A stretch of 64,000 nucleotides of DNA, taken from positions 1 through 64,000 of the forward strand of contig JAJPIJ010000028.1 of the NCBI GenBank assembly GCA_021324815.1, in the 5' to 3' direction. The notes below the pieces were generated by a model. That model worked only from the letters and a program-made list of their open reading frames with translations, made no database searches and had not been told where the DNA came from. The position numbers and the translations under genes were made by a program. Source of the stretch: Gammaproteobacteria bacterium (GTDB lineage: Bacteria; Pseudomonadota; Gammaproteobacteria; JAJPIJ01). Below, in pieces: positions 9,417-56,203 of the stretch; the first letter of the stretch is position 1, and each line of letters opens with the position of its first letter.

Positions 9417-10472
9417 GTGACCGCAAAGTTAAAGTGCTTTCTCAAGGTTGATTCCGGCGATGACTCGGGGCAGACTTGCGCCCTACAAACAACAACGCCC
9501 CCGGGAGTCAAACGCGTGCGCCGCAACGACTTCGACGTCACGGACAAGATCCGCACCACCGATCCGGCCGGGGTCGCCGCCGAGGTGATGCGCCTGTACC
9601 ACGGCCTCTATCCCGCCGGCAGGTCCCGGCCGATGGAACACGCCTTCGAGGACGTGACCCTGATGTATCGGGGCAGGCATCCGGACTATCACCCCTGCGA
9701 CACCGAATACCACGACATCCAGCACGTGCTCGACGTGACGCTGGCGATGGCGCGCCTGCTCGACGGCTACGAGCGCGGCCGGCGGGGCGAGGCGCCGCTG
9801 CCGCCGGATGTTTTCAGCGTCGGCGTGGTGACCGCCCTGTTTCATGACTGCGGCTACCTGCGGCGCCGCCATGACCACCGGCACCTCCACGGCGGGGAAT
9901 ACACCCTGACGCACGTCTCGCGCGGCTCGCATTTCCTGCGCGATTACCTGCCGCGCATCGGCCTGAGGAAGCACGCGGCGGCGGCCGCGCAGCTGGTGCA
10001 CTTCACCGGCTACGAGCGCCCGGTCGACACCATCCGCCTCGCCGACCCGCTGCTGCGCCGGGTCGGCGAGATCCTCGGCACCGCCGACATCATCGCGCAG
10101 ATGTCCGATCGCTGTTACCTCGAGAAGTGCCGCGACCGCCTGTACCCGGAATTCGTGCTGGGCGGGCTCGCCCGCCGCAAAATGCCCGACGGGCAGACCG
10201 TCACGATGTTCGAATCCGGCGACGATCTGGTGCGCAAGACCCCGGGATTCTATGCCAACGCCTCCAAGCGCCTCGACCAGCAGCTGCACCGCGCCTACCG
10301 CTACGCGGAGCACCACTTCGACGGCCGGAGGAATTTCTACGTCGAACAGATGAACAAGAACGTGAGCTATGCGGAGATTGTGGCGGAGGTCATGACCGAC
10401 AATTCCCCGGGGGGTCTGCTGCGCCGCCGTCCGCCCCGCACCGTGCAGCCGGCCCTGCACGCGCAGGCCTAG
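9417..10472 (+). CDS. HD-domain metal-dependent phosphohydrolase
   Basis: The protein has the HD-superfamily metal ligands in order: YHDIQHVLDVT (first His), ALFHDCGYL (the HD pair), and downstream HLHGGEY and VHFTGYE. The domain covers about residues 80-260 of 351. HD proteins hydrolyse phosphomonoesters or phosphodiesters, often of nucleotides; there is no GYP motif, so a c-di-GMP role is not implied. The start is uncertain: GTG 9417 is the longest, and the first 35 residues look poorly conserved, so a GTG near 9516 is possible. It ends at a strong bidirectional terminator. Confidence 0.75.
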   Translation: MTAKLKCFLKVDSGDDSGQTCALQTTTPPGVKRVRRNDFDVTDKIRTTDPAGVAAEVMRLYHGLYPAGRSRPMEHAFEDVTLMYRGRHPDYHPCDTEYHDIQHVLDVTLAMARLLDGYERGRRGEAPLPPDVFSVGVVTALFHDCGYLRRRHDHRHLHGGEYTLTHVSRGSHFLRDYLPRIGLRKHAAAAAQLVHFTGYERPVDTIRLADPLLRRVGEILGTADIIAQMSDRCYLEKCRDRLYPEFVLGGLARRKMPDGQTVTMFESGDDLVRKTPGFYANASKRLDQQLHRAYRYAEHHFDGRRNFYVEQMNKNVSYAEIVAEVMTDNSPGGLLRRRPPRTVQPALHAQA

Positions 10473-10483
10473 AATCCAACGTC

Positions 10484-10511
10484 AAAAAAGCCCCGCGCGG
10501 GGCGGGGCTTT
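10484..10511. terminator. Bidirectional intrinsic terminator
   Basis: The stem GCCCCGC (10490-10496) / GCGGGGC (10502-10508) is flanked by six A on the left and T residues on the right, so it can work in both directions. It separates the convergent HD-domain gene and the Tyr-rich exported protein gene. Confidence 0.8.
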
Positions 10512-10541
10512 CATCACATCCCACTCTCTGCTTGAAGCCGG

Positions 10542-10856
10542 CTACCAGCGATCGTGGTCGCGCCAATCGCGGTCGTGCCAGTCGTGGAAATGATGGTGGT
10601 AATAACCCCAAGGCCCGCCGTAGTAGCGCACCGAAGCCCACGGCGCGTAATAACCATAGGGATAATAGTACGGCCGGTACACGGGCACCGTTTCCACATA
10701 GGCCGGCACATACGCCGGCTGCTCAACCACCGGCACGCCGACGTTGAAGCCGAAGAAGATCTCGGTGCCGTGCGCGGCGGCCGTCTGCGGCAGCGCCATG
10801 CCGGTCATCATCGTGCCCGCCAGAAGACCGCCCGCCAATGTCGTCCGAATGCTCAT
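10542..10856 (-). CDS. Exported Tyr/His/Trp-rich protein
   Basis: The second Met (10856) is chosen because AAAGGAGGT is then six bases away; the first ATG (10862) touches the Shine-Dalgarno sequence. A signal peptide (TLAGGLLAGTMMTGMALPQTA, cleaved after TAAA) leads into a mature protein rich in Tyr, Pro, His and Trp (VYRPYYYPYGYYAPW, YHHHFHDWHDRDW). Such YxP/Y-rich periplasmic or outer-membrane proteins are common in proteobacteria with no defined role. It resembles the central YPY region of the DUF3300 protein encoded nearby. Confidence 0.6.
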   Translation of the reverse strand: MSIRTTLAGGLLAGTMMTGMALPQTAAAHGTEIFFGFNVGVPVVEQPAYVPAYVETVPVYRPYYYPYGYYAPWASVRYYGGPWGYYHHHFHDWHDRDWRDHDRW

Positions 10857-11036
10857 GATCATACCTCCTTTCGATAACCCTCTGTTGTTGAATTGGACAG
10901 CGCCACTCTATGGGCATTCGACCAAACCGATGCTGAATTTTCGATCCGGTTTGCGGAAGTGTGATGCGGTTCTGATCGCTTGTTTAGGCTGCGTTCAGAA
11001 TCGCCCGCGCCCGGCGGGCGCTGCCGATGGCGGAAA

Positions 11037-11118
11037 ATTAAATTTCGTTAATGTTCCGGCTTTCGCGCCGCTCCCGGATGATAATAAGCCTGCGTCCCGT
11101 GAGCATCGCGGGATGATT
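11037..11118 (+). promoter_or_regulatory. Conserved leader of the mini-protein gene, copy 1
   Basis: Two blocks are shared with the leader of the paralogous gene at 34212. Block 1, ATTAAATTT(C)GTTAATGTT(C)CGG (11037-11059), matches 34093-34115 at 21 of 23 positions and contains two TTAA units 11 bases apart, the period of OmpR/PhoB-type tandem sites. Block 2 is GTCCCG...CGCGGGATGATT (11094-11118), with a small CCCG/CGGG stem. Conservation of non-coding DNA between paralogues implies shared regulation. Confidence 0.5.
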
Positions 11119-11155
11119 TTCACCGACAGCCACCCACCATTGAAGGAGATTCAGC

Positions 11156-11296
11156 ATGACCATTCGCAAGCTCATCCTTGCCCTGATGACCGGTCTTTTC
11201 CTGGTCAGCACCGGCGCCATGGCCGCCGACAAGCACAAGTGCAAGAAAGGCGAGAAGTGGGACGCGGAGAAGAAGGCCTGCGTCGCCACGAAGTAA
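11156..11296 (+). CDS. Two-cysteine exported mini-protein, paralogue 1
   Basis: The ATG at 11156 after GAAGGAGA opens a 46-residue product. A signal peptide (MTIRKLILALMTGLFLVSTG, then AMAA) is followed by a very short mature peptide of about 22 residues, DKHKCKKGEKWDAEKKACVA. Two cysteines 13 residues apart could form one disulfide loop, and the peptide is strongly basic. It is nearly identical to the product at 34212. No family is known to me. It has its own leader and terminator, so it is a free-standing gene probably made in quantity. Confidence 0.75.
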   Translation: MTIRKLILALMTGLFLVSTGAMAADKHKCKKGEKWDAEKKACVATK

Positions 11297-11326
11297 GAGC
11301 AAGTCAGGCGTCATTGCAGCAGGAAG

Positions 11327-11355
11327 GAGGAGGGCCATGCCCTCCTCTTTTTTTT
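11327..11355 (+). terminator. Intrinsic terminator of mini-protein gene 1
   Basis: A perfect nine-base stem, GAGGAGGGC / GCCCTCCTC, with a three-base loop is followed by eight T. The paralogue at 34212 ends in a matching hairpin. Confidence 0.9.
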
Positions 11356-11421
11356 GCGGCGGCGGGCTCGGTTATCATTGCCCGTGGCGACTGAATCGCC
11401 GCGGGGAAGCGGGGCGGGAGA

Positions 11422-12306
11422 ATGACGATGAAAATCGATGCCGACAGGTTCCGCGTGCGGGAGGGGGAGAAGGTCAGGCTCAAGGACTGGCCGACGCTCG
11501 TCAAGCCCGTGTACAAATCAAGGGGGCATTACGGGAAACTGCTCAATGACCACGTCCGGCGGTTGAGCGCGTTCCAGGAGCTGCACTACGCGACCAATTG
11601 CTGCGCGGTGCTGCTGATTTTCCAGGCGATGGACGCCGCCGGCAAGGACGGCGCCATCAAGCACGTGATGTCCGGCGTCAACCCGCAGGGCTGCAAGGTG
11701 TTCAGCTTCAAGCATCCGAGCGCCGCCGAGCTGGAGCACGATTTTTTGTGGCGCACGATCCAGTGCCTGCCGGAACGCGGCCGTATCGGCATCTTCAACC
11801 GCTCCTATTACGAGGAGGTGTTGATCGTGCGCGTGCATCCGGAGATTCTGCGCAGCGAGGGCATCCCGGATGATTCGCTGGACGGTGGCTCGATATGGGA
11901 ATCCCGCTACCGCTCCATCGTCGATCTGGAGCGGCATCTGCATCGCAACGGGACGCGGATCGCCAAGTTCTTCCTGCATCTGTCGAAGGAGGAGCAGCGC
12001 CGGCGTTTTCTCCAGCGCATCGACAATCCGAAGAAGAACTGGAAGCTGAGCGCCGGCGACATCGAGGAGCGGAAATTCTGGAAGCAGTACATGCAGGCCT
12101 ACGAGTCGTGCCTCGGCGCGACCAGCACCCGCTTCGCACCGTGGTACATCGTGCCCGCCGACGACAAGGAGAACGCCCGGTTGATCATTTCCCAGATCAT
12201 TCTTGACCTGTTTCGCGGGCTCAAGATGTCCTATCCGAAGGCCGGCCGCGAACGCCGCCGGGAATTGCTGGCAATCCGCAAACAGCTCCTGGCCGGCGCA
12301 AAATAG
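11422..12306 (+). CDS. ppk2: Polyphosphate kinase 2 family protein (PPK2)
   Basis: The 294-residue cytosolic enzyme shows the PPK2 P-loop [20 protein letters not shown], the following [10 protein letters not shown], the second motif [19 protein letters not shown] and the lid-region arginines. PPK2 enzymes move phosphate between polyphosphate and nucleotides (ADP, GDP or AMP). The NPQGxxVxSF region resembles the branch that phosphorylates AMP/ADP from polyphosphate, but the substrate is not certain. The start at ATG 11422 has a GGGAG site. It is single-domain and not paired with ppk1 here. Confidence 0.9.
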
Positions 12307-12427
12307 CGCGCGCCCGTTTAAAAAGCCATCATCGCCGACCACCGTCCGCCCCGACGGCCCGTCCTGAGACAGCGGGGATTTTTGAGCAAGGCCCGTGCGG
12401 CGAACGCTCCGCGACGCTGACGGCGGA

Positions 12428-13027
12428 TCAGGTCTTTTTGTCTTCCGCCGCGCCCGTGGCCGGCGTCTTTTCCTTCTCGTGGTGCGGCTCGGCGATCTTC
12501 ACCTGCGCGCGGCTCAGGTTCTGGTAGATGCGCCGGCGGCGGTTGAGGGGCCACCAGTCGTACAAAAAAATCTGGATCGGCCGCCACATTGCCACCCAGC
12601 CGGCGATGGTGAGGCTCTCGCGCCCGAAAACCAGCAGCGAACCACTGGCGTGGCGATCGATGGCATCGGCGCCGAGCAGGCACAGCGCCAGGAAACCCAG
12701 CCCGATGAGCAGGCTCTCGCGCCCCTGGCTCAAAAGCCGGCGCAACTCCCGGCGCGTCAGCTCCGCCTTGTAGCTGAAGTAGTTGTGGATCGCCTCGCTG
12801 ATCAGCGCGCCGGGATTGGGCTCGGCGGGCATTTGCTGGAGATGGACGATGATGTGATAGCGGCTGTCGGAGGGATATTCCATCGCCCAGCTTTCGATGT
12901 AGTCCTCCGCGTCCGAGCTCAGGTCGCGATTGAAAAACGGCGTGGGGTCCATGGAATTGAACAGCTGCGCCAGCTCGCGCAGCCGCAGTTCGAGGCGGTG
13001 GACGTGATGGGTGGAGGCGGTCGTCAT
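12428..13027 (-). CDS. Conserved hypothetical membrane protein
   Basis: The 199-residue protein has a soluble acidic N-terminal half (LFNSMDPTPFFNRDLSSDAE, YIESWAMEYPSD) and two hydrophobic segments near residues 105-150 (LLIGLGFLALCLLGADAI, SLTIAGWVAMWRPIQIFLYD). A basic, Glu/Lys-rich cytoplasmic tail follows. The function is not known. It is the last gene of a three-gene minus-strand unit after the DUF3300 and DUF2950 genes (40 bases downstream of the latter). Confidence 0.6.
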   Translation of the reverse strand: MTTASTHHVHRLELRLRELAQLFNSMDPTPFFNRDLSSDAEDYIESWAMEYPSDSRYHIIVHLQQMPAEPNPGALISEAIHNYFSYKAELTRRELRRLLSQGRESLLIGLGFLALCLLGADAIDRHASGSLLVFGRESLTIAGWVAMWRPIQIFLYDWWPLNRRRRIYQNLSRAQVKIAEPHHEKEKTPATGAAEDKKT

Positions 13028-34092: not shown

Positions 34093-34171
34093 ATTAAATT
34101 TTGTTAATGTTACGGATCACCGTTGAATCCGCGGTCAAAATAGGGCGAGTCCCGCAAGCCGCGGGATGATT
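34093..34171 (+). promoter_or_regulatory. Conserved leader of the mini-protein gene, copy 2
   Basis: Block 1 (34093-34115, TTAAATTTTGTTAATGTTACGG core) and block 2 (34149-34171, GTCCCG...CGCGGGATGATT) match the leader at 11037-11118 in sequence and order, while the DNA between the blocks differs. TTAA units again recur 11 bases apart. Confidence 0.5.
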
Positions 34172-34211
34172 GCAAACCACAACAGACATTGACATGAAAG
34201 GAGATCGATCA

Positions 34212-34355
34212 ATGACTATTCGCAAACTCATGCTCGCCCTCATGACCGGCCTTTTCCTGGTCAGCACCGCCGCCATGGCCGCCGACACCCACAAGTGTAA
34301 AAAAGGCGAAAAATGGGACGATGCGAAGAAGGCCTGCGTCGCCGAGAAAAAATAA
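34212..34355 (+). CDS. Two-cysteine exported mini-protein, paralogue 2
   Basis: Starting at ATG 34212 behind AAAGGAGA, this 47-residue product has the same signal peptide as the one at 11156 (MTIRKLMLALMTGLFLVSTA, then AMAA) and the mature peptide DTHKCKKGEKWDDAKKACVA. The two differ at only a few positions. The Lys-rich loop between two Cys and the conserved Trp suggest a compact disulfide-stabilised periplasmic or secreted peptide. It has its own leader and terminator. Confidence 0.78.
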   Translation: MTIRKLMLALMTGLFLVSTAAMAADTHKCKKGEKWDDAKKACVAEKK

Positions 34356-34379
34356 TCCAGGCTTGCAGTGTTGCCGTGA

Positions 34380-34410
34380 AGAGGAGGGTCTCCCCTCCTC
34401 TTTGCTTTTT
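34380..34410 (+). terminator. Intrinsic terminator of mini-protein gene 2
   Basis: The stem AGAGGAGGG (34380-34388) / CCCTCCTCT (34393-34401) is followed by TTGCTTTTT. It matches the hairpin after the paralogue at 11156. Confidence 0.85.
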
Positions 34411-34596
34411 CGCGGCAAACGATCCCCGCCTCCCCAGGCCGGCCCGGGCGCGACGCGGGTGGAAGCCGCCCACGCCGGGCAGCGGGGGATTTTTGAGATA
34501 AGTTCCAATTCGGTGCTAGGATTCAACTCCCGGGAGGCCCCGGATTTGATCCGGCGATCCCGCTGAGGCCACCCATTCCCAGGCACGGACGGGCGC

Positions 34597-37131
34597 ATGC
34601 GGAAAAAATTCTGGACCACCGACTGGTTTGCCGGCCTTGCGGTATCGGTGGCCTTTCTCGCCCTGTACTGGCTGCAACCCCCCTTCGTGGAATCATTGGA
34701 GCGGGCCGCCTATGACCTCGGGGTGCGCTCCTCGACGCGGCAGCCGAGCGGCCAGATTGCGGTCATCGCCATCGACGACAACAGCATCACCAACCTCGGG
34801 CGCTGGCCGTGGCCGCGCAACATCATCGCCGACCTCACCGACCGGCTGGCCAAGGCGGGCGCCAAGGTCATCGCCAACACGGTGTTGTACACCGAGCCGC
34901 AAATCGATCCCGGGCTGACCCACATCAACGAGCTGCTGGCTCTCTACCAGACCAAGGGACTGTCCAAAAGCACCGATGCCGCCATCGTCGAACTGGGCAA
35001 CAAACTCAAGGCGGCGCAGGAGGACCTCGACAAGGACAAGAAGCTTGCCGACGCCGTGGGCCGCGCCGGCAACGTCGTGCTGGGCATGCAATTCATTCCC
35101 GGCCAGCCGCTGGGCAAGGCCGACAAGCCGACGCCGGATTACGTGGCCAGAAACGCCCTGCCGGACAACAAGGTGCTGCCGGGGGCGGGTGACGCCGAGC
35201 CGCTGTACGCCTCCCAGTTGTTCGCGCCCATCCCCGAAATCGGCGCCAGGGCCGCCGCCATCGGCCATCTCAACCAGGATCCGGACAGCGACGGCGGGCT
35301 GCGCAAGGAGCCGCTGATCTTCAATTACTTCGATCACTACTACCCGTCGTTTGCGCTCGCCGTCGCCGCGCGCACGCTCAATCTCGCGCCGGGTGAGATT
35401 GAACTCACCAAGGGCGAGCACGTCAAGATCGGCAAGCTGCTCATCAAGACCAATCCCGAATCGGAGATGTACACGTTCTTCTACAAGGACGAGGGCGACA
35501 GGCCGGCCTTCAAAATCGATTCGTTCTATGACGTGTTCTACAACAAGATTCCGCTGGAAAATTACAAGGACAAGGTGGTGTTGATCGGTCCCACCGCCTT
35601 CGGCGTCGGCGAGACCTTCCCGACGCCGATCTCCAAGGGCATGGCCCCCGTCGTGGTGCTCGCCCACACGGTCTCCAGCATTCTGAACGAGCATTTCTTC
35701 ATCGTGCCGTCGTGGGGCTCGCTGGTCGAATTCCTGATCCTGATCGGGGTCGCGGCATATCTCATCGCCGCCCTGCCGCGGCTGCCCGCCGGGCCGGCGG
35801 CGGGCGCCACCGGCGCGCTGCTGGCGGCGCTGCTGGCCGTCAACTTCCTCGCCATGAAGGCCGGCGGGATGTGGTTGCAGACCATGCTCCCCGCCCTGTT
35901 CCTGATTTGCGGGCACCTGCTGCTCACCACCAAGCGCTTCCTGGTCACCGAGCGGGGCAAGATGAAGGCGGACACCGAGTCGGCCGAGAGCAACCGGCAG
36001 CTGGGGTTGTCGTTGCAGCAGTCCGGCCAGCTGGACATGGCCTTCGAACGGTTCCGCCGCCTGCCGATGGACGATTCCGTGATGGAACTGCTGTACAACC
36101 TCGCCGGCGACTTCGAGCGCAAGCGGCAGTTCAACAAGGCCAACTCCGTCTACGCGGTCATGGCGCAGTACAACAGGAAATTCCGTGATCTCGAGATGCG
36201 CATGACCCGCGCCAAGGCGATGGAGGAGACGGTCATGCTGGGCGGCGGCGGCGGCCATCCGGGCGGCACCCTCATCCTGGCCGACGGCAACGTGCAGAAA
36301 CCCATGCTGGGCCGCTACCAGGTGGAAAAGGAGCTCGGCAAGGGGGCCATGGGCGTCGTCTACCAGGGCCGCGACCCCAAGATCAACCGCATCGTCGCCA
36401 TCAAGACACTGGCCCTGCAGGAGCTTCCCGCCGATGAACTGGAGACGATCAAGTCGCGTTTCTACCGCGAGGCCGAGACCGCCGGCCGCCTGCAGCACCC
36501 GAACATCGTCGCCATCTATGACGTCGGCGAGGAGCATGATCTGGCCTACATCGCCATGGAATTCCTGAAGGGCCATGACCTCACCCGCTACACCAAGAAG
36601 GAAAGCCTCATGGCGGTGCAGCTGGTCATGGGCATCGTCTACAAGGCCGCGCTGGCGCTCGATTACGCGCATTCCCAGGGGGTGGTGCATCGCGACATCA
36701 AGCCGGCCAATATCATGTTCGACCCCGAGGCCAAGAGCATCAAGCTGACCGACTTCGGCATCGCCCGCATCACCGATTCCAGCAAGACCAAGACCGGCAT
36801 GGTGCTCGGCACGCCGTCGTACATGTCGCCGGAGCAACTCGCCGGCAAGAAGATCGACGGCCGTTCCGATCTGTTTTCGCTGGGCGTCATGCTCTACCAG
36901 ATGGTCACCGGCGAACTGCCGTTCAAGGGCGAATCGATGGCCACGCTCATGTACAATATCGCCAACGAACCGCATCAGGATGTGTTCATCTTGCGTCCCG
37001 AACTGGCAAAGACCAAACCCTGCCTGCGGGTGATCATCAACAAGGCCCTGGAGAAGGACCTGGCCAGGCGCTACCAGACCGGCGCGGAGATGGCCAGGGA
37101 TGTCCAGGCCTGCGCCAAGAAGGCCGGCTGA
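34597..37131 (+). CDS. CHASE2-domain serine/threonine protein kinase
   Basis: The 844-residue membrane receptor kinase has an N-terminal anchor (WFAGLAVSVAFLALYWLQ), a periplasmic CHASE2 sensor (residues about 35-360; GQIAVIAIDDNSITNLGRWP), and three membrane helices (EFLILIGVAAYLIAALP and following). A TPR-like linker follows (LQQSGQLDMAFERFRRLP). The kinase domain at about 570-840 has LGKGAMGVVYQGRD, VAIKTL with the ATP lysine, HRDIKPANIMFD, DFGIAR and MSPEQLAG, so it should be active. EETVMLGG just before the domain may be an autophosphorylation site. PP2C and FHA genes follow, which suggests a reversible phospho-signalling unit. Confidence 0.93.
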   Translation: MRKKFWTTDWFAGLAVSVAFLALYWLQPPFVESLERAAYDLGVRSSTRQPSGQIAVIAIDDNSITNLGRWPWPRNIIADLTDRLAKAGAKVIANTVLYTEPQIDPGLTHINELLALYQTKGLSKSTDAAIVELGNKLKAAQEDLDKDKKLADAVGRAGNVVLGMQFIPGQPLGKADKPTPDYVARNALPDNKVLPGAGDAEPLYASQLFAPIPEIGARAAAIGHLNQDPDSDGGLRKEPLIFNYFDHYYPSFALAVAARTLNLAPGEIELTKGEHVKIGKLLIKTNPESEMYTFFYKDEGDRPAFKIDSFYDVFYNKIPLENYKDKVVLIGPTAFGVGETFPTPISKGMAPVVVLAHTVSSILNEHFFIVPSWGSLVEFLILIGVAAYLIAALPRLPAGPAAGATGALLAALLAVNFLAMKAGGMWLQTMLPALFLICGHLLLTTKRFLVTERGKMKADTESAESNRQLGLSLQQSGQLDMAFERFRRLPMDDSVMELLYNLAGDFERKRQFNKANSVYAVMAQYNRKFRDLEMRMTRAKAMEETVMLGGGGGHPGGTLILADGNVQKPMLGRYQVEKELGKGAMGVVYQGRDPKINRIVAIKTLALQELPADELETIKSRFYREAETAGRLQHPNIVAIYDVGEEHDLAYIAMEFLKGHDLTRYTKKESLMAVQLVMGIVYKAALALDYAHSQGVVHRDIKPANIMFDPEAKSIKLTDFGIARITDSSKTKTGMVLGTPSYMSPEQLAGKKIDGRSDLFSLGVMLYQMVTGELPFKGESMATLMYNIANEPHQDVFILRPELAKTKPCLRVIINKALEKDLARRYQTGAEMARDVQACAKKAG

Positions 37132-37144
37132 GGGGACCGCCGCC

Positions 37145-37972
37145 GTGGACATGTCTGGCGTGCTTGAAATCGTCAACATGTCCGACACCGGACGCAAGCG
37201 CCCCCACAACGAGGACAGCACCGTCAGCGACGCGCGCCTGGGGCTGGCCATCGTCGCCGACGGCATGGGCGGCTACAAGGGCGGCGAGGTGGCCAGCGCC
37301 ATCGCCGTGACCACCATCCTGCACGAGATGCGTCAGGCGCTCTCCCGCATCAATCCCACCCAGATCGACAAGGCCAGCGGCTTGAGCCAGGGCGCGCTGC
37401 TGCTGCGCGACGCCATCACCCTGGCCAACGGCCAGATCTTCCAGACCGCGAGCCAGGAGCCGCTGTGCCAGGGCATGGGCACCACCGTGGTTGCCGTCCT
37501 GCTGCATGACGGCAACCGGATCAGCATCGCGCATGTCGGCGACTCAAGGCTCTACCGCCTGAGAAACGGCCGGTTCGAGCAGATTACGAGCGATCATTCC
37601 CTCATCCAGGAACTGATCAACAAGGGCTATTTCACCAGGGAGGAGGCCGTCGCCAACACCCCCAAGAATCTGGTGACGCGCGCCTTGGGGATAGAGGAGG
37701 ACGTCGTGGTGGATATCCAGGACGACGTTTTTCTGCCTCAGGACACCTACCTGATGTGCTCGGACGGTTTAAATGATATGATATCTGATGAAGAAATTCA
37801 CTTAACCCTAAGTAAATATAGTGGTAATCTTATACAGGCGGCCAGCGAATTGATACGTATTGCCAACCAAAATGGGGGCAAGGACAATATTTCGGTCATA
37901 CTGATTCGCCCGCGCGTGGGAGCCCGCGGGAAGATGGGGTGGTGGAAAAAATTATTCGGATGGTTCAGTTAA
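37145..37972 (+). CDS. PP2C-family protein phosphatase
   Basis: The start is placed at GTG 37145 after AGGGG; ATG 37151 is equally possible, and an upstream ATG at 37100 overlaps the kinase. The product of about 275 residues has the PP2C metal-binding motifs RPHNEDS, VADGMGGYKGGE, VGDSRLYRL, CSDGLNDM and GGKDNISVILI, all intact. It likely dephosphorylates the kinase and the FHA protein. The DNA from about 37765 to 37890 is clearly AT-rich, with codons such as TTA, AGT and ATA. A basic, Trp-rich C-terminus (GWWKKLFGWFS) may bind membrane. Confidence 0.93.
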   Translation: MDMSGVLEIVNMSDTGRKRPHNEDSTVSDARLGLAIVADGMGGYKGGEVASAIAVTTILHEMRQALSRINPTQIDKASGLSQGALLLRDAITLANGQIFQTASQEPLCQGMGTTVVAVLLHDGNRISIAHVGDSRLYRLRNGRFEQITSDHSLIQELINKGYFTREEAVANTPKNLVTRALGIEEDVVVDIQDDVFLPQDTYLMCSDGLNDMISDEEIHLTLSKYSGNLIQAASELIRIANQNGGKDNISVILIRPRVGARGKMGWWKKLFGWFS

Positions 37973-37995
37973 GTATGAAATAACAGGATGAACGC

Positions 37996-38715
37996 ATGGC
38001 GAAACTCATACTCAGCCTGAACGGTGTGGTACAGAAGGAATACCAGTTGACCAAGGAACGTACCACCATCGGCCGCAAACCCGACAACGACATCCAGGTC
38101 GACAACCTCGCCGTGAGCGGCAAGCACGCGCTCATCATCACCATTCTGGACGATTCCTTCCTTGAGGATCTGGGCAGCACCAACGGCACCTACGTCAACG
38201 GCAAGCTCATCAAGAAGCACGCCCTGCGTGACGGCGACGTCATTGGCCTCGGCAAGCATGAACTGAAATACATCAACGAGCACGCCAGCGCCGACGACGA
38301 GGAATTCGAGAAGACCATGATCATCCGGCCGGGCTCGGCCAGTGCCGCCGTGGCCGCCGCCCAGGCCGCCGCCGCCGCCGCGCCGCAGGCGGCACCCGCC
38401 GCTGCCGCGGTCGGGGTTCCCCCACAGGCGCCCGGCATGCCGCTCGGCAAACTGCACGTGTTGAACGGCCCCATCGCCGGCAAGGAACTGGAACTCACCA
38501 AGGCGCTGATCACGCTCGGCAAGCCCGGCGTGCAGGTGGCGGTGATTTCGCGCCGGCCGCAGGGCTATTTCCTGACGCACATCGAGAGCGACAGCGGCGG
38601 CAAGAATTATCCCGTCGTCAACGGCAAGCCCATCGGCCCGCAGGCCTACACCCTGCAAAGCGGCGACGTGATCGAACTGGCGGGGATAAAGATGGAGTTC
38701 TCCCTCGCCCGCTGA
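37996..38715 (+). CDS. FHA-domain protein with a degenerate second FHA
   Basis: The N-terminal FHA domain is canonical: TTIGRKPDNDIQVDNLAVSG, KHALI and LGSTNGTYVNG, with Arg, Ser, His and Asn phosphothreonine-binding residues. A linker with FEKTMIIRP and an Ala-rich stretch (AVAAAQAAAAAAPQAAP) leads to a second FHA-like region (GKLHVLNGPIAGKELELTK, NGKPIG). It lacks the Gly-Arg and Ser-x-x-His, so it should not bind phosphothreonine. The 239-residue soluble protein is the probable reader of the kinase's phospho-sites. It starts 24 bases after the phosphatase. Confidence 0.9.
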   Translation: MAKLILSLNGVVQKEYQLTKERTTIGRKPDNDIQVDNLAVSGKHALIITILDDSFLEDLGSTNGTYVNGKLIKKHALRDGDVIGLGKHELKYINEHASADDEEFEKTMIIRPGSASAAVAAAQAAAAAAPQAAPAAAAVGVPPQAPGMPLGKLHVLNGPIAGKELELTKALITLGKPGVQVAVISRRPQGYFLTHIESDSGGKNYPVVNGKPIGPQAYTLQSGDVIELAGIKMEFSLAR

Positions 38716-39002: not shown

Positions 39003-41267
39003 CTATTTGGTGGTGTGAGTGTAGACGCCGTCCCAATCCGCGCCCGGCGGATTTCTTCTGAACTCGGCGACACGTTTCGCGTACATTTCGTACAAATACG
39101 GGCGTGCTGCAGCCTTGGCCAGATTCAGGAACTGCAACTCGGCCAGGTCCCATTGCTGCGTCCGGTAATATTTGAGCGCCTGCCGGTAGATTTCCAATTC
39201 ATCCCGCTTCTCCTTGGAAATATCGGCCGGCGGGCCCAGCGGCTCGTAGATCGACACCGGCCTGTCCTTGCCCTTGACACGCACCATGTCCAGCTCGCGA
39301 TAGACCAGTTCCGGCACCGCCGCCTTCGTCGTCTCACTCACGATAATGTCGACGCCGTAGACCTTGGTCAGGCCTTCCAGCCGCGAACCGAGATTGACGG
39401 CATCGCCCATCACGGTGTAGGCCATGCGGAATTCCGAGCCCATGTTGCCGACGGTCATGGTGCCGGTGTTGATGCCGATGCCGATGCGCATTTCCGGCCA
39501 GCCGCGCCGCTTGAAGTCGGCGTTCACGCCCTCGAGTTTTTCGATCATGCGCAGCGCGGCCAGCACGGCGTGCCTGGCGTGCTCGCGATCGGGAACCGGC
39601 GCGCCCCAGAACGCCATGATGGCATCGCCCATGTACTTGTCGATGGTGCCGCGGTGCTCGTGAATGACCCGTGTCATCGGCGTCAGCATTTCATTCATCA
39701 ACTCGGACAGCGCCCTGGGGTTCATGCCCTCGGAGATCGTGGTGAACCCGCGGACGTCGGAGAACAGCACGGTCATCTCCCGGCTCACCGCCTCCAGCGA
39801 GTAGCGCTCCGGGTCATCCGCCATCTCGTCGACCAGCTCCGGAGGCACATACTGCCCGAACAGGCCGGTCAACTGGCGCTTGCCGCGGTTTTCGATGAAG
39901 TAGCCGTAGAACATGTCGAGGATGAACAGGAGGATGATCAGCACCCAGCCGGAGGCCAGCGGCAGCACCAGCTGCCCCTTGATCCAGCAGAACATGTTGA
40001 ACGCCGTGTAGAGTGCGAGCGCGCCGAGCGTCGTCAGGGTTTCGGCCAGCGGGCCGAGCAGCGGCAGCGTCAGCGCCAGCGCCATCCCGAAGACGAACAG
40101 CAGGATGATCTCGGCGCCCCGCACGTAGGCGGGTTTCTGCATGATGCGGCCCTCCAGAATGCCGGCAATCAGGTTGGCGTGCACCTCGACGCCGGGATAG
40201 GCCTTTTGCACCGGCGTGGAGCGCAGGTCGAGGAGGCCGGCGGCGGTGGTGCCGACGATGGCGATGGCGCCCGGCCGCAGCAGTTCCGGATTGGCGGTGC
40301 CATGGATGACGTCGGTGGCGGCCACGTAGGGGAAGCTGCCCTGGCCGCCGCGATAGGGCACCAGCGCCTGGATGTGTTCATCCACCGGGATTGAGCGATT
40401 GCCGATGCGCAGCGATTCCAGGCCGGCGTAATTTTTGGAGGCGCCGAACGGCGCCTGCTCGAACTTGGCCTCCACCCCGCTCGCGCCCAGATAGGTGCGC
40501 GCCATCGCCAGCGACAGTGATTCGTACTGCGCGCCGTCGTAGTCCATGACCATGGGCACGCGGCGGACAATGCCGTCGTCATCCAGCCAGGGATTGAAAT
40601 GGCCGGCGGCGGCGGCCTTCTCCTGGAATACGGGCAGATTGCCGCCATATCCCGAGGCGGGGCGGAAGGAGATGTGCCTGCCTTCAAAGGCCCCCCTGGG
40701 GAAGGTCGGCGGCGGCAGGGCGCCGGAATGCGCGGCCTTGACGTCGCTGCTGGCCTCGTTGAAAAAATAGCCGAGCACCACCTTGTACTTGCCGATGATG
40801 TTGGCGAAGTTGCCGTCGTTGTCGAGCCGGGGCTTGAGTTCCCTCAGGCGCTGTTCAAAACCGGAGATGCCGCCGAACTCCCGCCGCGACAACTGCTCCA
40901 GCACCTTGAGGCCGGAGCTTTCATCGGGCTCGGCGAACACCACGTCGAATCCGACCAGCGCAACCTTGTATTTCTCGAACAGCTGCTCGACCATGCGCGC
41001 CACGCGGTCGCGTCCCCAGGGCCAGCGCCCCTCCGCCTGCAGGCTTTTTTCGTCGATGTCGATGATGACCACGCCGGGGTCCACCGTCCTCGGCATGGTC
41101 AGCAACAGGCGGGCGTCGTAGCTGATGTTTTCCAGTTGATCAATGGACGACCAGCGCAGCGGGCTGCCCTCCTCCTCGCGGGCATGCAACAGCAGGGTCG
41201 CCAGCACCCCCAGGCTCAGGGCGACGGGGACGCGCTGTTTTTTCAGCCTGTCGAGCCAGGGCCGCAT
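39003..41267 (-). CDS. CHASE2-domain adenylate/guanylate cyclase
   Basis: The 754-residue membrane protein has an N-terminal helix (PVALSLGVLATLLLH) and a CHASE2 sensor (about 40-380; GVVIIDIDEKSLQAEGRWPW, IAIVGTTAAGLLDLRSTPVQ). Three membrane helices follow, then a class III cyclase domain (about 485-680): TVLFSDVRGFTTISEG with the first metal Asp, DKYMGDAIMAFWGAP with the second, and GDAVNLGSRLEGLTKVYG. The Lys in DKYMGD fits adenylate cyclase. The ATG overlaps the lipoprotein gene's stop (TGATG), so the gene is coupled to the lipid-transport operon. A short TPR-like C-terminal tail (LKYYRTQQWDLAELQF) resembles the kinase's linker. Confidence 0.93.
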   Translation of the reverse strand: MRPWLDRLKKQRVPVALSLGVLATLLLHAREEEGSPLRWSSIDQLENISYDARLLLTMPRTVDPGVVIIDIDEKSLQAEGRWPWGRDRVARMVEQLFEKYKVALVGFDVVFAEPDESSGLKVLEQLSRREFGGISGFEQRLRELKPRLDNDGNFANIIGKYKVVLGYFFNEASSDVKAAHSGALPPPTFPRGAFEGRHISFRPASGYGGNLPVFQEKAAAAGHFNPWLDDDGIVRRVPMVMDYDGAQYESLSLAMARTYLGASGVEAKFEQAPFGASKNYAGLESLRIGNRSIPVDEHIQALVPYRGGQGSFPYVAATDVIHGTANPELLRPGAIAIVGTTAAGLLDLRSTPVQKAYPGVEVHANLIAGILEGRIMQKPAYVRGAEIILLFVFGMALALTLPLLGPLAETLTTLGALALYTAFNMFCWIKGQLVLPLASGWVLIILLFILDMFYGYFIENRGKRQLTGLFGQYVPPELVDEMADDPERYSLEAVSREMTVLFSDVRGFTTISEGMNPRALSELMNEMLTPMTRVIHEHRGTIDKYMGDAIMAFWGAPVPDREHARHAVLAALRMIEKLEGVNADFKRRGWPEMRIGIGINTGTMTVGNMGSEFRMAYTVMGDAVNLGSRLEGLTKVYGVDIIVSETTKAAVPELVYRELDMVRVKGKDRPVSIYEPLGPPADISKEKRDELEIYRQALKYYRTQQWDLAELQFLNLAKAAARPYLYEMYAKRVAEFRRNPPGADWDGVYTHTTK

Positions 41268-49376: not shown

Positions 49377-49682
49377 TTATTGCAGCGTCCCGAAGCCGTC
49401 CACCGGCTCGATCCAGTAGGCCGCCTCCGGATGCCGGACGGTGTCGCGCAGGCGGCGAATCAGCTCGTCGATGCGCACGGCGGGCAGGACGATGAACAGC
49501 ATCCGCCGGGCGACGCGGCCGCGGACCTTTTCACGCACGCTCGCGCGCGTGAAATCCTGGCCGTGTCCCTCGGCATTGGTCACCGTGAATCCGCCCAGCG
49601 GCGGTTCAAAGGCGAACAGCGCTTCCGTCACGGTGTCCTCGATCGACGCCGGAAAGACGATGGTGAGCTTGCATAGTTTCAC
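49377..49682 (-). CDS. DUF3240 protein of the metal efflux operon
   Basis: A GTG start at 49682 overlaps the pump gene's stop as GTGA; the product is 101 residues (MKLCKLTIVFPASIEDTVTE). It is a small alpha/beta PII-like protein (GGFTVTNAEGHGQDF, RMLFIVLPAVRIDELIRRLR). DUF3240 genes typically follow HME-type RND pumps; a metal-binding or regulatory role has been suggested but is not proven. An open frame runs upstream to 50876, but that part is only an overlap shadow of the pump gene. Confidence 0.85.
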   Translation of the reverse strand: MKLCKLTIVFPASIEDTVTEALFAFEPPLGGFTVTNAEGHGQDFTRASVREKVRGRVARRMLFIVLPAVRIDELIRRLRDTVRHPEAAYWIEPVDGFGTLQ

Positions 49683-52600
49683 GTGCGGATTTCCAATGCC
49701 GCAGGGCGCCGCTCCACACCGAAATGACGGTAAAGAGCCGGCAGCAACAGCAACGTCAGCAGCGTCGCGCTGACCAGGCCGCCGATGACCACGATGGCCA
49801 GTGGCCGCTGGATTTCGGAACCCGGGCCGGTTGCGAACAGCAGCGGCACCATGCCGAAGGCGGTGATGCTGGCCGTCATCAGCACCGGCCTCAAGCGCCG
49901 CTGCGCGCCTTCCAGCACCACGCGATCCAGCGGCAGGCCGGTGTCCAGCAGTTGATTGAAGGTCGTCACCATCACGAGCCCGTTCAGGACCGCGATGCCG
50001 AGCAGGGCGATGAAGCCCACTGACGCCGGCACCGAGAGATATACCCCTGTCGCGGCCAGCGCCAGCACGCCGCCGACCATCGCGAACGGTATGTTCGCCA
50101 GGATCAGCATCGCCTGCCGCATGCTGCCGAAGGTGGAGAACAGCACGACGAAGATCAACCCCAGCGCCGCCGGCACCACCAGCACCAGCCGCGCCGCCGC
50201 GCGCTGCTGATTTTTGAACTGCCCGCCCCAGGCCAGCCGGTACCCGGACGGCAGCGCAACGCGCGCCGCCACGGCGCGCCGCGCCTCCTCGACGTAACCG
50301 ACCAGATCGCGCCCGGTCACGTTGGCCTGCACCACCGCGTAGCGCGAGTTGCCTTCGCGATCCACCTTCACCGGACCGTCGACGCGGCGGACGGCGGCGA
50401 CATCGGAGACTCTGGCGCTGCCACCGTCCGGCGCAGCCAACCGCAGATCGCCGAGCCGCTCCGGCATCGCGCGCAGTCGCTCCTCGCCGCGGATGACGAG
50501 CGGAATCCGCCGCCCGGCCTCCAGCACGTAACCGGCGTTCATGCCCTCGATCTGGCCGCGAAGTTCGGCCTGCACGTCGTTCACGCTCAGGCCCGCCCGG
50601 CCCGCCGCCTCGCGATTGACGTCGATTTCGAGATACTGCACGCCGGTATTGGTCAGCGTGTACACGTCGGCGCTGCCGCGCAGGGATTGCAGGACCGCGT
50701 GTATGCGGGCGGCGATGCGGCCGAGCTCCCCAAGATCCGGGCCGAACACCTTGACGGCCAGATCGCCGCGCGTCCCCGTCAGCATCTCGGAGACGCGCAT
50801 TTCGATCGGCTGCGTGAAGACGTACGCGATGCCCGGAAACCGGTCGATGACGCCGCGGATCGCATCGACCAGCCATGGCTTGTCGGGATGACGCCAGCTC
50901 GCCTTGGGCTTGAGCATGAGAAAGCTGTCGGTCTGGTTGAGACCCATCGGATCGAAGCCCAGCTCGTCGGACCCGAGGCGCGCGATGATGCTTTCGACCT
51001 CGGGCACGTCTCGCAGTATCGCGCGCTGCATGCGGAGATCGATGTCGGCGCTGCGATCGATGTTGATCGACGGCAGCTTCTCGATCTGGACCAGGAGGGC
51101 GCCCTCATCCATGGCAGGCATGAATGTCTTGCCGACGTGGCCCCAGGCGAGGACGGCGGCGGCAATCATCGCCGCCGCGCCGATCGCGACGGCGCCCCGG
51201 TACCGCAGCGCCAGCGGCAGAAGGCGCGCATAGAGGCCGTCGAGCCTGCGCATCAGCCAGGGTTCATCGTGCGCGCCGGCCCGCAGCAACAGCGACGCCA
51301 GCACCGGCACCACCGTCAGCGACAGCACCAGGGAGGCGCCCAGCGCGAAGACGATGGCCAGCGCCACCGGGCTGAACAGCTTGCCCTCCAGTCCCTGCAG
51401 CGTCAGCAGCGGGACGAACACCAGGCAGATGATGAGTATGCCAGCGGATACGGGCGTGATGACCTCGCACGCCGCGCGGTACACGATGTGGAGCCGCGGC
51501 AGCTTCGCCGCGTCCGGCCGCGCCAGATGCGTGACCACGTTCTCGACGACCACGACGGCGCCGTCGACCAGCATGCCGATGGCGATGGCGAGTCCGCCCA
51601 GGCTCATCAGGTTCGCCGACAGGCCGGATACCCGCATCAGCATGAAGGTGATGAGCGCGGCCAGCGGCAAAGTGGTCGCGACCACCAGCGCGGCGCGCAG
51701 CTCGCCCAGAAACACGAGCAGCAGCACGACCACCAGGACCGTCGCCTCCAGCAGTGCGCGGCTGACGGTGCCGACGGCGCGCTCAATCAGATCGCTGCGG
51801 TCGTAAAACACCCGGATGGTCGTTCCGCGCGGCAGCACCGGTTCGAGCTCCTGCAGCCGTGCCCGCACCGCAGCCACGGTCCGGCTGGTGTTGGCGCCGC
51901 GCAGGCCCATGACGAGACCCTCAACCGCTTCGCCCGCGCCGTCCTTCGTCACCGCGCCGTAGCGTGTCAGTGTTCCCATGCGCACCGCGGCGACGTCCTG
52001 CACGCGCACGATGCGGTTGCCCTCGCGCTTGACGACGGTCGACTTCAGATCGTCGAGGCCGCGGACGGCGCCGGTGGCGCGCACCACCAGGGCCTCCTCG
52101 CCCTCGGCCAGGCGTCCCGCCCCGTCATTGCCGTTATTGACCTCCAGCACCTGCCTGAGATCGGCAAGTGTGACGCCGATCGCGGTCATGGCGGCGCGAT
52201 CCGGCACGATCTCGAAGGTAGGGACCCGGCCGCCGAGCGCGTTGACGTCGGCGACGCCGGGCAGGGTCCGCAGCGCCGGCCGGATGACCCAGTCGAGCAG
52301 CGACCGTCGCTCTTCAAGCGAGGCCGGCCCCTCGATCGTGAACATGAACACATCGGACAGCGGGGTGGCAATCGGCGCCAGTCCGCCGCCGACCCCCGGC
52401 GGCAGGCTGCCGCTGACGCTCGCGTAGCGCTCGGCCACCTGCTGGCGCGCCCAGTAGATGTCCGTGCCGTCGGCGAAGTCCAGCGTCACGTCGGCGATCG
52501 CGTACTTCGCCGACGACCGCAGCATCGTCTGCCGCGGGATTCCCATGAGTTCCATTTCGAGTGGAATGATGACGCGGGTTTCGACCTCCTCCGGCGTCAT

Positions 52601-52765
52601 GCCCGGGGCCTTGAGTATCAGCTTGACCTGCGTCGGCGAGATGTCGGGAAACGCGTCGATGGGCAGCTGCCGGAATGACCACGTGCCGCCGGCCGCAATC
52701 AGTATGACGAAGAGGGCCGTCACCAGGCGCTGCGAGAGCGCGAATTCCACGAGGCGGCGCAGCAT
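49679..52765 (-). CDS. Heavy-metal efflux (HME) RND pump, CzcA/CusA type
   Basis: The 1028-residue inner-membrane protein has the RND layout: TM1 (VTALFVILIAAGGTWSFRQL), two large periplasmic loops and twelve helices. It is of the HME branch (PTQVKLILKAPGMTPEEVET, RLHIVYRAACEVITPVSAGI). Helix 4 reads LAIAIGMLVDGAVVVVENVV, with one Asp; the DFGxxxDG Asp pair of CzcA is absent. The metal specificity therefore cannot be assigned and a Cu/Ag-like or other specificity is open. It exports a cation with the adaptor encoded four bases upstream; no outer-membrane factor gene is in the window. Confidence 0.92.
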   Translation of the reverse strand: MLRRLVEFALSQRLVTALFVILIAAGGTWSFRQLPIDAFPDISPTQVKLILKAPGMTPEEVETRVIIPLEMELMGIPRQTMLRSSAKYAIADVTLDFADGTDIYWARQQVAERYASVSGSLPPGVGGGLAPIATPLSDVFMFTIEGPASLEERRSLLDWVIRPALRTLPGVADVNALGGRVPTFEIVPDRAAMTAIGVTLADLRQVLEVNNGNDGAGRLAEGEEALVVRATGAVRGLDDLKSTVVKREGNRIVRVQDVAAVRMGTLTRYGAVTKDGAGEAVEGLVMGLRGANTSRTVAAVRARLQELEPVLPRGTTIRVFYDRSDLIERAVGTVSRALLEATVLVVVLLLVFLGELRAALVVATTLPLAALITFMLMRVSGLSANLMSLGGLAIAIGMLVDGAVVVVENVVTHLARPDAAKLPRLHIVYRAACEVITPVSAGILIICLVFVPLLTLQGLEGKLFSPVALAIVFALGASLVLSLTVVPVLASLLLRAGAHDEPWLMRRLDGLYARLLPLALRYRGAVAIGAAAMIAAAVLAWGHVGKTFMPAMDEGALLVQIEKLPSINIDRSADIDLRMQRAILRDVPEVESIIARLGSDELGFDPMGLNQTDSFLMLKPKASWRHPDKPWLVDAIRGVIDRFPGIAYVFTQPIEMRVSEMLTGTRGDLAVKVFGPDLGELGRIAARIHAVLQSLRGSADVYTLTNTGVQYLEIDVNREAAGRAGLSVNDVQAELRGQIEGMNAGYVLEAGRRIPLVIRGEERLRAMPERLGDLRLAAPDGGSARVSDVAAVRRVDGPVKVDREGNSRYAVVQANVTGRDLVGYVEEARRAVAARVALPSGYRLAWGGQFKNQQRAAARLVLVVPAALGLIFVVLFSTFGSMRQAMLILANIPFAMVGGVLALAATGVYLSVPASVGFIALLGIAVLNGLVMVTTFNQLLDTGLPLDRVVLEGAQRRLRPVLMTASITAFGMVPLLFATGPGSEIQRPLAIVVIGGLVSATLLTLLLLPALYRHFGVERRPAALEIRT

Positions 52766-52769
52766 GAGG

Positions 52770-53825
52770 CTATTCGCTCACGGCGATGGATTTCAGCGCG
52801 CTGACGCCGCTGATCGCAATTTGCGCGCCAGTGTCGAGTGGCGGCGCCTGCACCACCACTTCATCGCCGATGCGTGCGCCGGGCCGGACCTCAAGCGTCC
52901 TGAAACCGGTGGCGGTGCGCAGGAAGATCACCGACGCGTCGCCGAGCCGCGTGACGGCTGGGGCCGGCAGCAGCAGCGTGCCGGGCGCGGCCGCGTCGTA
53001 CAGCGTGGCCTCCAGCGTCTGGCCGGCGATGAGACCCCGGGGATCGGGGATTTCGAGGCGCGCCAGCGCCGAGCGCGTGGAGGGATCCAGTTGCAGGCCG
53101 ACCGCAATCACGGTCGCGCCAACCTGCACCGGCCCCACCGTCGCGCGCTGGCCGGGATGCAGCCTGGCAATCAGCGCCTCCGGCACCTGGGCCTCGCCCC
53201 ACAGTGCCGCGCTGTCGACGATGAACAGCGCGGTCGATTCGGCGCTGACCGCGGCACCGACCCGCAGGCCGTTTTCGACCGCGCGTCCGGCCACCGGCGC
53301 CAGCAACTCGATTTCCGTCTGCGACCCTTCCACCGGCTGTAGGCGGCCCATCAGCGTGCGCTTTTCCCGCAGGGCGGTCTCCCGGGCGCGATACTCGGCA
53401 CGGCTCTCCTCCAGCCGCCGCCGCGGCGCCAGCCCCTCCCGGACCAGCGCCTCATCGCGCCGCAGACGCATGTGCAGCATTTCCGTTTCGGCAGTCAGGC
53501 GGGCGATGTCCGCAGTCAGCGTCGCCAGCTCCCGGCTGTTTATGCGCAGCAGGGGCTGGCCGGCCCGGACGCTGTCGCCCTCCTGCACATGCAGGCGCGA
53601 CACTACGCCGCCCACCGGCGTGATCACCGCGTGCGTGTGAGTGGCCGGCAGCACCAGCCGCACCGGAACGACGCCCAGCGCCGCCTCGGTCACGCTGGAC
53701 GCTGCGCGGGATTCAACGCCGAGCGCCTGCAGCTGCTCGGTGCTGACGCGGATGTCGAGCGCCCCGGCCACCGGCGCACCCGTGAATGAAACCGCGAGCA
53801 CCGCAGCCGGAATCATCTTGTTCAT
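52770..53825 (-). CDS. RND periplasmic adaptor (CusB/CzcB-like)
   Basis: The start at 53825 follows GGAGG by six bases; an in-frame upstream ATG (53876) would cross the putative operator. The 351-residue protein has a signal peptide (MIPAAVLAVSFTGAPVAGA), lipoyl half-motifs (TPVGGVVSRLHVQEGDSVRA, LLAPVAGRAVENGLRVGAAV) and an alpha-hairpin between them (ADIARLTAETEMLHMRLRRD). A beta-barrel part follows (ATVGPVQVGATVIAVGLQLD). It links the pump to an outer-membrane channel. No N-terminal His/Met metal tail is seen. Confidence 0.88.
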   Translation of the reverse strand: MNKMIPAAVLAVSFTGAPVAGALDIRVSTEQLQALGVESRAASSVTEAALGVVPVRLVLPATHTHAVITPVGGVVSRLHVQEGDSVRAGQPLLRINSRELATLTADIARLTAETEMLHMRLRRDEALVREGLAPRRRLEESRAEYRARETALREKRTLMGRLQPVEGSQTEIELLAPVAGRAVENGLRVGAAVSAESTALFIVDSAALWGEAQVPEALIARLHPGQRATVGPVQVGATVIAVGLQLDPSTRSALARLEIPDPRGLIAGQTLEATLYDAAAPGTLLLPAPAVTRLGDASVIFLRTATGFRTLEVRPGARIGDEVVVQAPPLDTGAQIAISGVSALKSIAVSE

Positions 53826-53877
53826 CGGCCACCTCCGACAGATACGAATGGATATGCGGCCATTGTTTCGGATCAAG

Positions 53878-53894
53878 CTTTGAAAATGCTTAAA
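53878..53894 (-). promoter_or_regulatory. Candidate response-regulator site upstream of the efflux operon
   Basis: CTTTGA, five bases (AAATG), then CTTAAA: a degenerate form of the direct repeat at 56187-56203, sharing ATGCTTAA. It is 53 bases upstream of the adaptor start, a usual place for an activator site. Confidence 0.45.
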
Positions 53895-53972
53895 CCCGCC
53901 ATGGCGCGGCCGTGGCCGGCATTGGAAGGGGGGTACAGCCGCCGCGACCGGTCCCGCCCGCAGCGGCCCGAG

Positions 53973-55397: not shown

Positions 55398-56049
55398 AAC
55401 CGAATCCGCGCCGCGTTTCGATGAGCTCGCCCGCGCCGGCGCCGGCGAGCTTGGCGCGCAGCGTGCTCATCAGCACCTCGATGACCTTGTCGGACGCCTC
55501 GCTGTGGCTGGCGTAGAGATGCTCGAAGATTGCCGCGCGGCTCAGCACCTGGCCACGCCGGCGCGCCAGCAGTTCGAGCAGAGCGTATTCCTTGGGTGTC
55601 AGGGCCAGCCGCGCGCCGCCGACCCGCACCGTCTTGGTCACGGTGTCGATGATGACGGTCCCGGCGGTCAGTTCCGTCGCCGGACGCTCCTGATCGCGGC
55701 GGCCCAGCGCCTGGATGCGCGCCCGCACCTCGTCGAACGAGAACGGCTTGATCAGGAAATCGTCGGCGCCGAGATCAAGGGCGCGCACGCGATCCTCCAC
55801 CTGATCCATCGCCGACAGCACCAGCACGCGCGTCTGGAGCCGCGCTGACCGGATGTGCTGGAGCACCTTCCAGCCGTCGACGCGCGGCATCATGAGATCG
55901 AGCACGACGACGTCATACGGATAGCGTTCGAGGTAGGCCAGCGCGTCCTGGCCGTCCACGGCCGCATCGACGACCAAGCCCTGCGCGGTGAGGCCGGTTT
56001 GCAAAAGGGATCGCATGCGCTCGGAGTCTTCGACAATCAGGATCCGCAT
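55384..56049 (-). CDS. OmpR-family response regulator (PmrA/QseB/CopR-like)
   Basis: The Met at 56049 (MRILIVEDSERMRSLLQTGL) gives the family's standard 220-odd residues; the open frame extends to 56139. The receiver has the acidic pair in VED, phospho-Asp in VVLDLMMPRVDGWKVL, and Lys in LIKPFSFDEV. The winged-helix output domain has LTPKEYALLELLARRRGQVL, SEASDKVIEVLMSTLRAKL and IETRRGFGYVLA. PmrA/QseB-type regulators bind CTTAA direct repeats, and such a site is present upstream. It probably regulates the efflux genes and itself. Confidence 0.92.
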   Translation of the reverse strand: MRILIVEDSERMRSLLQTGLTAQGLVVDAAVDGQDALAYLERYPYDVVVLDLMMPRVDGWKVLQHIRSARLQTRVLVLSAMDQVEDRVRALDLGADDFLIKPFSFDEVRARIQALGRRDQERPATELTAGTVIIDTVTKTVRVGGARLALTPKEYALLELLARRRGQVLSRAAIFEHLYASHSEASDKVIEVLMSTLRAKLAGAGAGELIETRRGFGYVLA

Positions 56050-56186: not shown

Positions 56187-56203
56187 CTTAAGGGATGCTT
56201 AAG
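56187..56203 (-). promoter_or_regulatory. PmrA/QseB-type direct-repeat box, autoregulatory candidate
   Basis: CTTAAG, GGATG, CTTAAG is a perfect match to the CTTAA(G/T)-N5-CTTAA(G/T) site known for PmrA/BasR and close to that for QseB. It is about 140 bases upstream of the regulator's chosen start and 113 bases upstream of the divergent NlpC gene. CTTAAG is itself palindromic, so the strand is not defined. Confidence 0.6.

Follow-up and report, generated by a model that had tools for sequence, protein, structure and literature searches.

Two very short genes on one bacterial contig encode closely similar exported-looking peptides, and the likeness of the two loci reaches well beyond the coding parts. 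What switches these genes on, and what might the peptides do? The stretch of DNA analysed here, which we call the window, is 64 kb long (G000:C26:1-64000). It comes from a 2.37-Mb genome in 54 contigs and has a GC content of 65.5%. A first-pass annotation of the window had described both genes, and we followed its claims with homology searches, comparison of genomes and structure prediction.

Two mini-protein genes lie in duplicated cassettes

Self-BLAST of positions 10001-12500 against the window returned a single long secondary match, which pairs 11037-11360 with 34093-34416 at 74.8% identity over 333 columns (E = 2.3e-49). The local alignment score of the two cassettes is 231, compared with 26 or less among 50 shuffles. 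The DNA homology runs from an AT-rich box to just past the terminator, and none is seen outside these limits. Because the likeness spans box to terminator, it indicates duplication of a cassette, more than of the coding part alone. The first-pass annotation had likewise proposed that whole expression cassettes are kept, and the 333-bp homology bears this out. The elements of both cassettes are listed in Table 1.

Table 1. Elements of the two cassettes in the window, and the genes elsewhere that carry the same box
Feature	Position	Strand	Details
Operator-like box, copy 1	11037..11055	+	ATTAAATTTCGTTAATGTT (ATTA-N8-TAAT); 119 bp ahead of copy 1 start codon
Predicted -10, copy 1	11080..11085	+	GATAAT; 43 bp after box start; predicted transcription start about 11092
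5'-end mRNA hairpin, copy 1	11092..11118	+	GUCCCG...CGGGAU, then GAUU; from folding
Mini-protein copy 1, 46 aa	11156-11296 (incl. stop)	+	Predicted signal peptide 1-23; mature ADKHKCKKGEKWDAEKKACVATK
Intrinsic terminator, copy 1	11321..11355	+	GGAGGAGGG hairpin and T run; z = -4.98
Operator-like box, copy 2	34093..34111	+	ATTAAATTTTGTTAATGTT; 119 bp ahead of copy 2 start codon
Predicted -10, copy 2	34136..34141	+	CAAAAT; 43 bp after box start; predicted transcription start about 34148
5'-end mRNA hairpin, copy 2	34149..34173	+	GUCCCGC AAGCC GCGGGAU, then GAUU; from folding
Mini-protein copy 2, 47 aa	34212-34355 (incl. stop)	+	Mature ADTHKCKKGEKWDDAKKACVAEKK; syntenic orthologue in sister genome (L004)
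Intrinsic terminator, copy 2	34376..34412	+	GAGGAGGG hairpin and T run; z = -5.21; also listed by consensus scan
Small exported protein, two cysteines	L089:7475-7780 and L068:8383-8685		Beside radA and CusR/HprR-like two-component genes; same box

The 46- and 47-residue reading frames, their coordinates, signal peptides and two cysteines all proved to be as first annotated. The two peptides differ at 6 of 46 aligned residues. A basic n-region, a hydrophobic core and an AxA cleavage site, read from the sequence and the alignment, agree with Sec export. Export of the mini-proteins is thus well supported, as is the earlier proposal of a secreted or periplasmic peptide. The predicted mature parts start after AMA|AD and are 23 (copy 1) and 24 (copy 2) residues long, slightly more than the 22 or so first given; their basic character stands, with a calculated pI of 9.4 and 9.1 and a net charge of +3.9 and +2.9, respectively. 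Each contains one His and two Cys (C29 and C42). The dN/dS ratio is 0.15 between the copies and 0.14-0.16 between each copy and its counterpart in the sister genome, which indicates purifying selection on the mini-protein.

No model in Pfam or NCBIfam fits the mini-protein, and a sequence search of solved structures gave one irrelevant match (E 3.1). NCBIfam matches of two members to Asr and CpxP were set aside, copy 1 being without any match; these matches appear to stem from the signal peptide and a Lys/Glu-rich tail. Rfam gave no match at gathering score in the whole window, and at 11000-11400 weak matches far under the cut-off (e.g., RsmZ, 14.9 bits).

The mini-protein gene is present twice in the window and three times in the genome (G000). 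The third copy, on contig C5, is 64% identical and has a Lys/Glu-rich tail; both peptide and box are kept. Downstream neighbours are unlike between the window's copies, with PPK2 after copy 1 and a CHASE2 kinase after copy 2. The sister genome (G001), the other genome of the genus, has one copy, whose neighbours match those of copy 2. Upstream lies a DUF4124-like gene, and downstream a CHASE2 kinase and then PP2C and FHA genes (assigned from family models for copy 2 and read from the sequence in G001). Because the G001 orthologue has the neighbours of copy 2, copy 1 is probably the derived copy. The window's CHASE2 Ser/Thr kinase, PP2C phosphatase and FHA protein genes lie in series at 34597-38712 (+), a similar series being found in the sister genome (L069), and are followed by a gene for a CHASE2 adenylate/guanylate cyclase at 39003-41267 (-).

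Predicted promoters and transcript ends

Both leader blocks that had been described as common to the two copies were recovered: block 1 is ATTA-N8-TAAT, and block 2 consists of an inverted repeat with GATGATT after it. In four peptide genes, -10-like hexamers (GATAAT, CAAAAT, CAAAAT and CAATAT) lie 42-43 bp after the box start. A good -35 element is not evident in the peptide genes, and a consensus promoter scan of the copy 1 region calls none; this absence fits an activated promoter. With the predicted transcription start, the mRNA would begin with the block 2 hairpin. Hairpins at the 5' end may make an mRNA more stable. Across four homologous leaders, 28 of 28 pair cells are standard and two pairs are compensatory, with 31 of 500 shuffles doing equally well; we take the compensatory support for this hairpin as suggestive only.

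At the other end of each gene, the strong hairpin terminator noted earlier holds up. The two hairpins have folding energies of -23 and -22 kcal/mol (z about -5), and no shuffle of 200 was as good. The list produced by a simple consensus scan lacks the copy 1 terminator.

Leader block 1 is a candidate operator

ATTA-N8-TAAT occurs at just two sites in the 64 kb (11037 and 34093), against an expectation of 0.07, and none of 100 shuffles had two. A search of five genomes with the paralogue consensus found, beyond the peptide genes, a site in G001 (contig C21) upstream of a gene whose product is an exported protein of 101 residues. This site reads CATTAACAAAAGTTAATG, and the orthologous gene in G000 (contig C13) has a similar site upstream. 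The refined pattern ATTAANNNNNGKTAATNT, searched with no mismatch, matches exactly 4 places in G000 against a calculated expectation of about 0.02, although the pattern was built from the very sites that it finds and the reasoning is partly circular. Three of these places are at the peptide genes; the fourth is at the gene that lies between radA and a histidine kinase-response regulator (HK-RR) pair. In G001 there are exactly 2 sites, at the peptide orthologue and at the corresponding radA/HK-linked gene. When one mismatch is allowed, the match count nears that of a reversed-pattern control.

In G000 and G001 alike, the radA-linked gene is flanked by radA and a convergent HK-RR pair, and its small exported product has no Pfam or NCBIfam family. 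The boxes lie 119, 119, 120, 110, 126 and 120 bp from the start (the first two values from coordinates), which amounts to 110-120 bp for peptide genes and 120-126 bp for radA/HK-linked genes. That two genomes carry the site ahead of orthologous genes, at a similar distance from the start, offers independent support for an operator. Beyond what was first annotated, leader block 1 can thus be proposed as a candidate operator common with a gene beside a two-component system of heavy-metal/oxidant type.

In E. coli, the CusR/HprR box is CATTACAAAATTGTAATG (PMC9302797). The leader box has the same ATTA-N8-TAAT geometry, but the half-site interiors are unlike those of E. coli: the inner 8 bases are ACAAAAGT in G001 and CAAAATTG in E. 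coli. Against such regulation, exact pattern matches were absent from metal-efflux genes of G000, and no box lies directly upstream of the response regulator itself in G001. With one mismatch allowed, the canonical CATTAC-N6-GTAATG did not clearly outnumber its control in seven genomes. G094 has CATTACTAAACGTTAATG (CATTA-N8-TAATG) between a divergent RR-HK pair and a three-gene efflux operon. This operon appears CusCBA-like, with CopC/CopD-like genes nearby, as read from the sequences and not from family models. G094 has one more CATTA-N8-TAATG site, which falls within a coding frame; we took it as chance.

A candidate regulator lies beside radA

The best NCBIfam models for the C13 response regulator are the heavy-metal response regulator TIGR01387 (237-240 bits), then CusR, then HprR, and among six full-length regulators of G000 it is the best match of heavy-metal type. 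These are the curated families nearest to it, which likens the system to the CusR/HprR regulon of E. coli. It differs from that regulon in that its targets would be peptide genes and in that regulator and kinase fall under every curated cut-off shown, with 237-240 bits against 279 for TIGR01387. By curated score the regulator is therefore outside TIGR01387, CusR and HprR, and we leave the stimulus of the C13 system unassigned. It is plausible, with moderate support from these comparisons, that the box belongs to the C13 regulator.

The window's own two-component system (about 53976-56049) is a less likely regulator, as its heavy-metal response regulator score is lower than that of the C13 regulator and its upstream repeat is different, TTAAG-N6-TTAAG. 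This repeat, at 56187-56202, is unique in the window and lies upstream of an OmpR-type regulator. The region 49679-56049 (-) encodes a heavy-metal RND efflux transporter of the CusA/CzcA family (965 bits, above the cut-off), accompanied by an RND adaptor, a histidine kinase and the OmpR-type response regulator.

A sparse family with a two-cysteine unit

Among 369 genomes of the class, and after many weak matches that covered the signal peptide alone were thrown out, G001, G002, G003 and G094 have convincing short homologues, and G123 and G315 have weaker ones. The first-pass annotation had named homologues in close relatives as a test, and such homologues exist. It had also suggested that the family may be widely missed, its genes being too short for most gene callers. 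This is not supported: convincing relatives are few, plasmid and viral contig collections contain none, and the short family is sparse; the usual floor of gene callers is 90 nt, which the 141-nt gene exceeds. A9, A21, C29, W35 and C42 are invariant in 9 of 9 aligned members. The relatives in G002 and G003 keep the peptide and have a different upstream region, a point against control of the family through the box. At loci L006 and L007, another conserved stretch, TTTTACATGYCGTGACACYGCTGTGATTCC, replaces the ATTA-N8-TAAT box upstream of the peptide gene.

A profile of the mature part, searched in 399 genomes of the phylum, identified exported TPR proteins whose N-terminus carries the unit C-x2-G-x2-WD-x5-CV, and L019 likewise has this unit. 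By our own reading, these proteins are alphaproteobacterial. Their N-terminal CKKGEVWDKKKKKCV presents the same unit after a signal peptide, but there it is fused to TPR repeats, whereas in the mini-proteins it makes up the entire mature protein. The His of the mature peptide is not kept in these relatives, which favours a structural role for the cysteines. AlphaFold2, given a nine-sequence alignment, predicted two strands, 33-36 and 41-44; block pLDDT is 79-80 for the mature part, against an overall value of 66.9. The mature peptide is thus modelled as a beta-hairpin, which a Cys29-Cys42 disulphide would likely close.

A possible role in metal or oxidant stress, and its rivals

Our preferred reading, held tentatively and with somewhat less than even confidence, is that of a metal- or oxidant-induced exported peptide under CusR/HprR-like control. 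Each cassette would give one short mRNA with a 5' hairpin and a 3' intrinsic terminator. The CusR/HprR-like regulator of the RR-HK pair near radA would bind ATTA-N8-TAAT and turn transcription on; besides the three peptide genes, its regulon would take in a single additional small exported protein. The peptide would be exported by Sec and cleaved after AMA to about 23 residues, and in the periplasm C29 and C42 would close a small basic beta-hairpin bearing the invariant Trp. CusR/HprR-like regulation, export and two cysteines together suggest a periplasmic buffer or protectant, a biochemical role that is weakly supported and guessed from the regulation.

The logic would resemble that of PcoE, a periplasmic metal-binding protein (metal sponge) controlled by CusRS (PMC7558416). 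The mini-protein is small and exported like PcoE and SilE, and PcoE is under a heavy-metal two-component system (PMC7558416). However, the mini-protein has 23 residues with one His and two Cys, no multiple metal-binding sites and an unrelated sequence, and no Pfam or NCBIfam model places it with PcoE/SilE. So few ligands argue against a metal sponge.

The main rival is a CBM_14-type glycan- or partner-binding hairpin, which we consider unlikely. Here, C-x2-G-x2-W-[DS]-x5-C-V would be a minimal disulphide beta-hairpin like the C-terminal half of CBM_14, would bind peptidoglycan or an envelope partner, and would be stress-regulated only secondarily. Its place at the head of exported TPR proteins suits such a role, and the C-terminal hairpin of CBM_14 (peritrophin-A) has a like C-x2-G-x2-aromatic-D-x5-C spacing, the mini-protein being a predicted beta-hairpin too. 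Of 7 members, 5 match CBM_14 (PF01607; best E 0.017), as do the TPR proteins bearing the unit, but every match falls on the profile's second half and under the gathering cut-off (13.1 bits for copy 1 against 22.1), so that the mini-protein equals half a domain, with two cysteines against six. Foldseek places EGF- and TNF-receptor-type small extracellular hairpins at the top of its matches; none is below E 0.001, however, and short motifs converge easily.

The remaining alternatives concern the box and the purpose of export. The AT-rich block could be an UP element for the polymerase alpha subunit within a strong constitutive cassette for an abundant envelope peptide, since it is AT-rich in a GC-rich window and would lie about -55 to -37 from the predicted start, the usual UP position. 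We think this distinctly unlikely: G is found among the conserved positions, as is a symmetric ATTA/TAAT spacing, the geometry equals that of the CusR/HprR box, and exact matches are confined to four genes, one of them linked to a two-component system in both genomes. The antimicrobial or signalling role raised by the first-pass annotation found no positive evidence, and among the genes kept with the copies we recognised none for immunity, a transporter or a receptor. A small, basic, exported, disulphide-capable peptide would suit a secreted antimicrobial or bacteriocin, but neighbours vary between copies and include no recognised immunity or dedicated export gene, and the orthologue is syntenic and under purifying selection, which makes this improbable. 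Extracellular signalling by a small, exported, multicopy peptide is the most improbable of all, as none of the neighbouring genes was recognised as one for maturation or a receptor and common regulation indicates output rather than input.

Returning to the metal- or oxidant-induced peptide, a more specific version seems rather doubtful to us. In it, the CusR/HprR-like system would control almost only tiny two-cysteine hairpin peptides and one small partner, a dedicated periplasmic buffer against metal or oxidant stress encoded in stabilised monocistronic cassettes copied whole. If the metal- or oxidant-induced reading is right, this would be a very small stress regulon in which the output genes are copied whole, from promoter to terminator. 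An unannotated peptide family would also be tied to a named kind of sensor and a defined operator, so its function would be directly testable, and the C-x2-G-x2-W-D-x5-C unit that heads the alphaproteobacterial exported TPR proteins would gain a possible interpretation.

Divergent from copy 1, a gene at 10542-10862 (-) encodes an exported-looking protein without a Pfam match. Its His-rich C-terminus, YYHHHFHDWHDRDWRDHDRW, may possibly bind metal.
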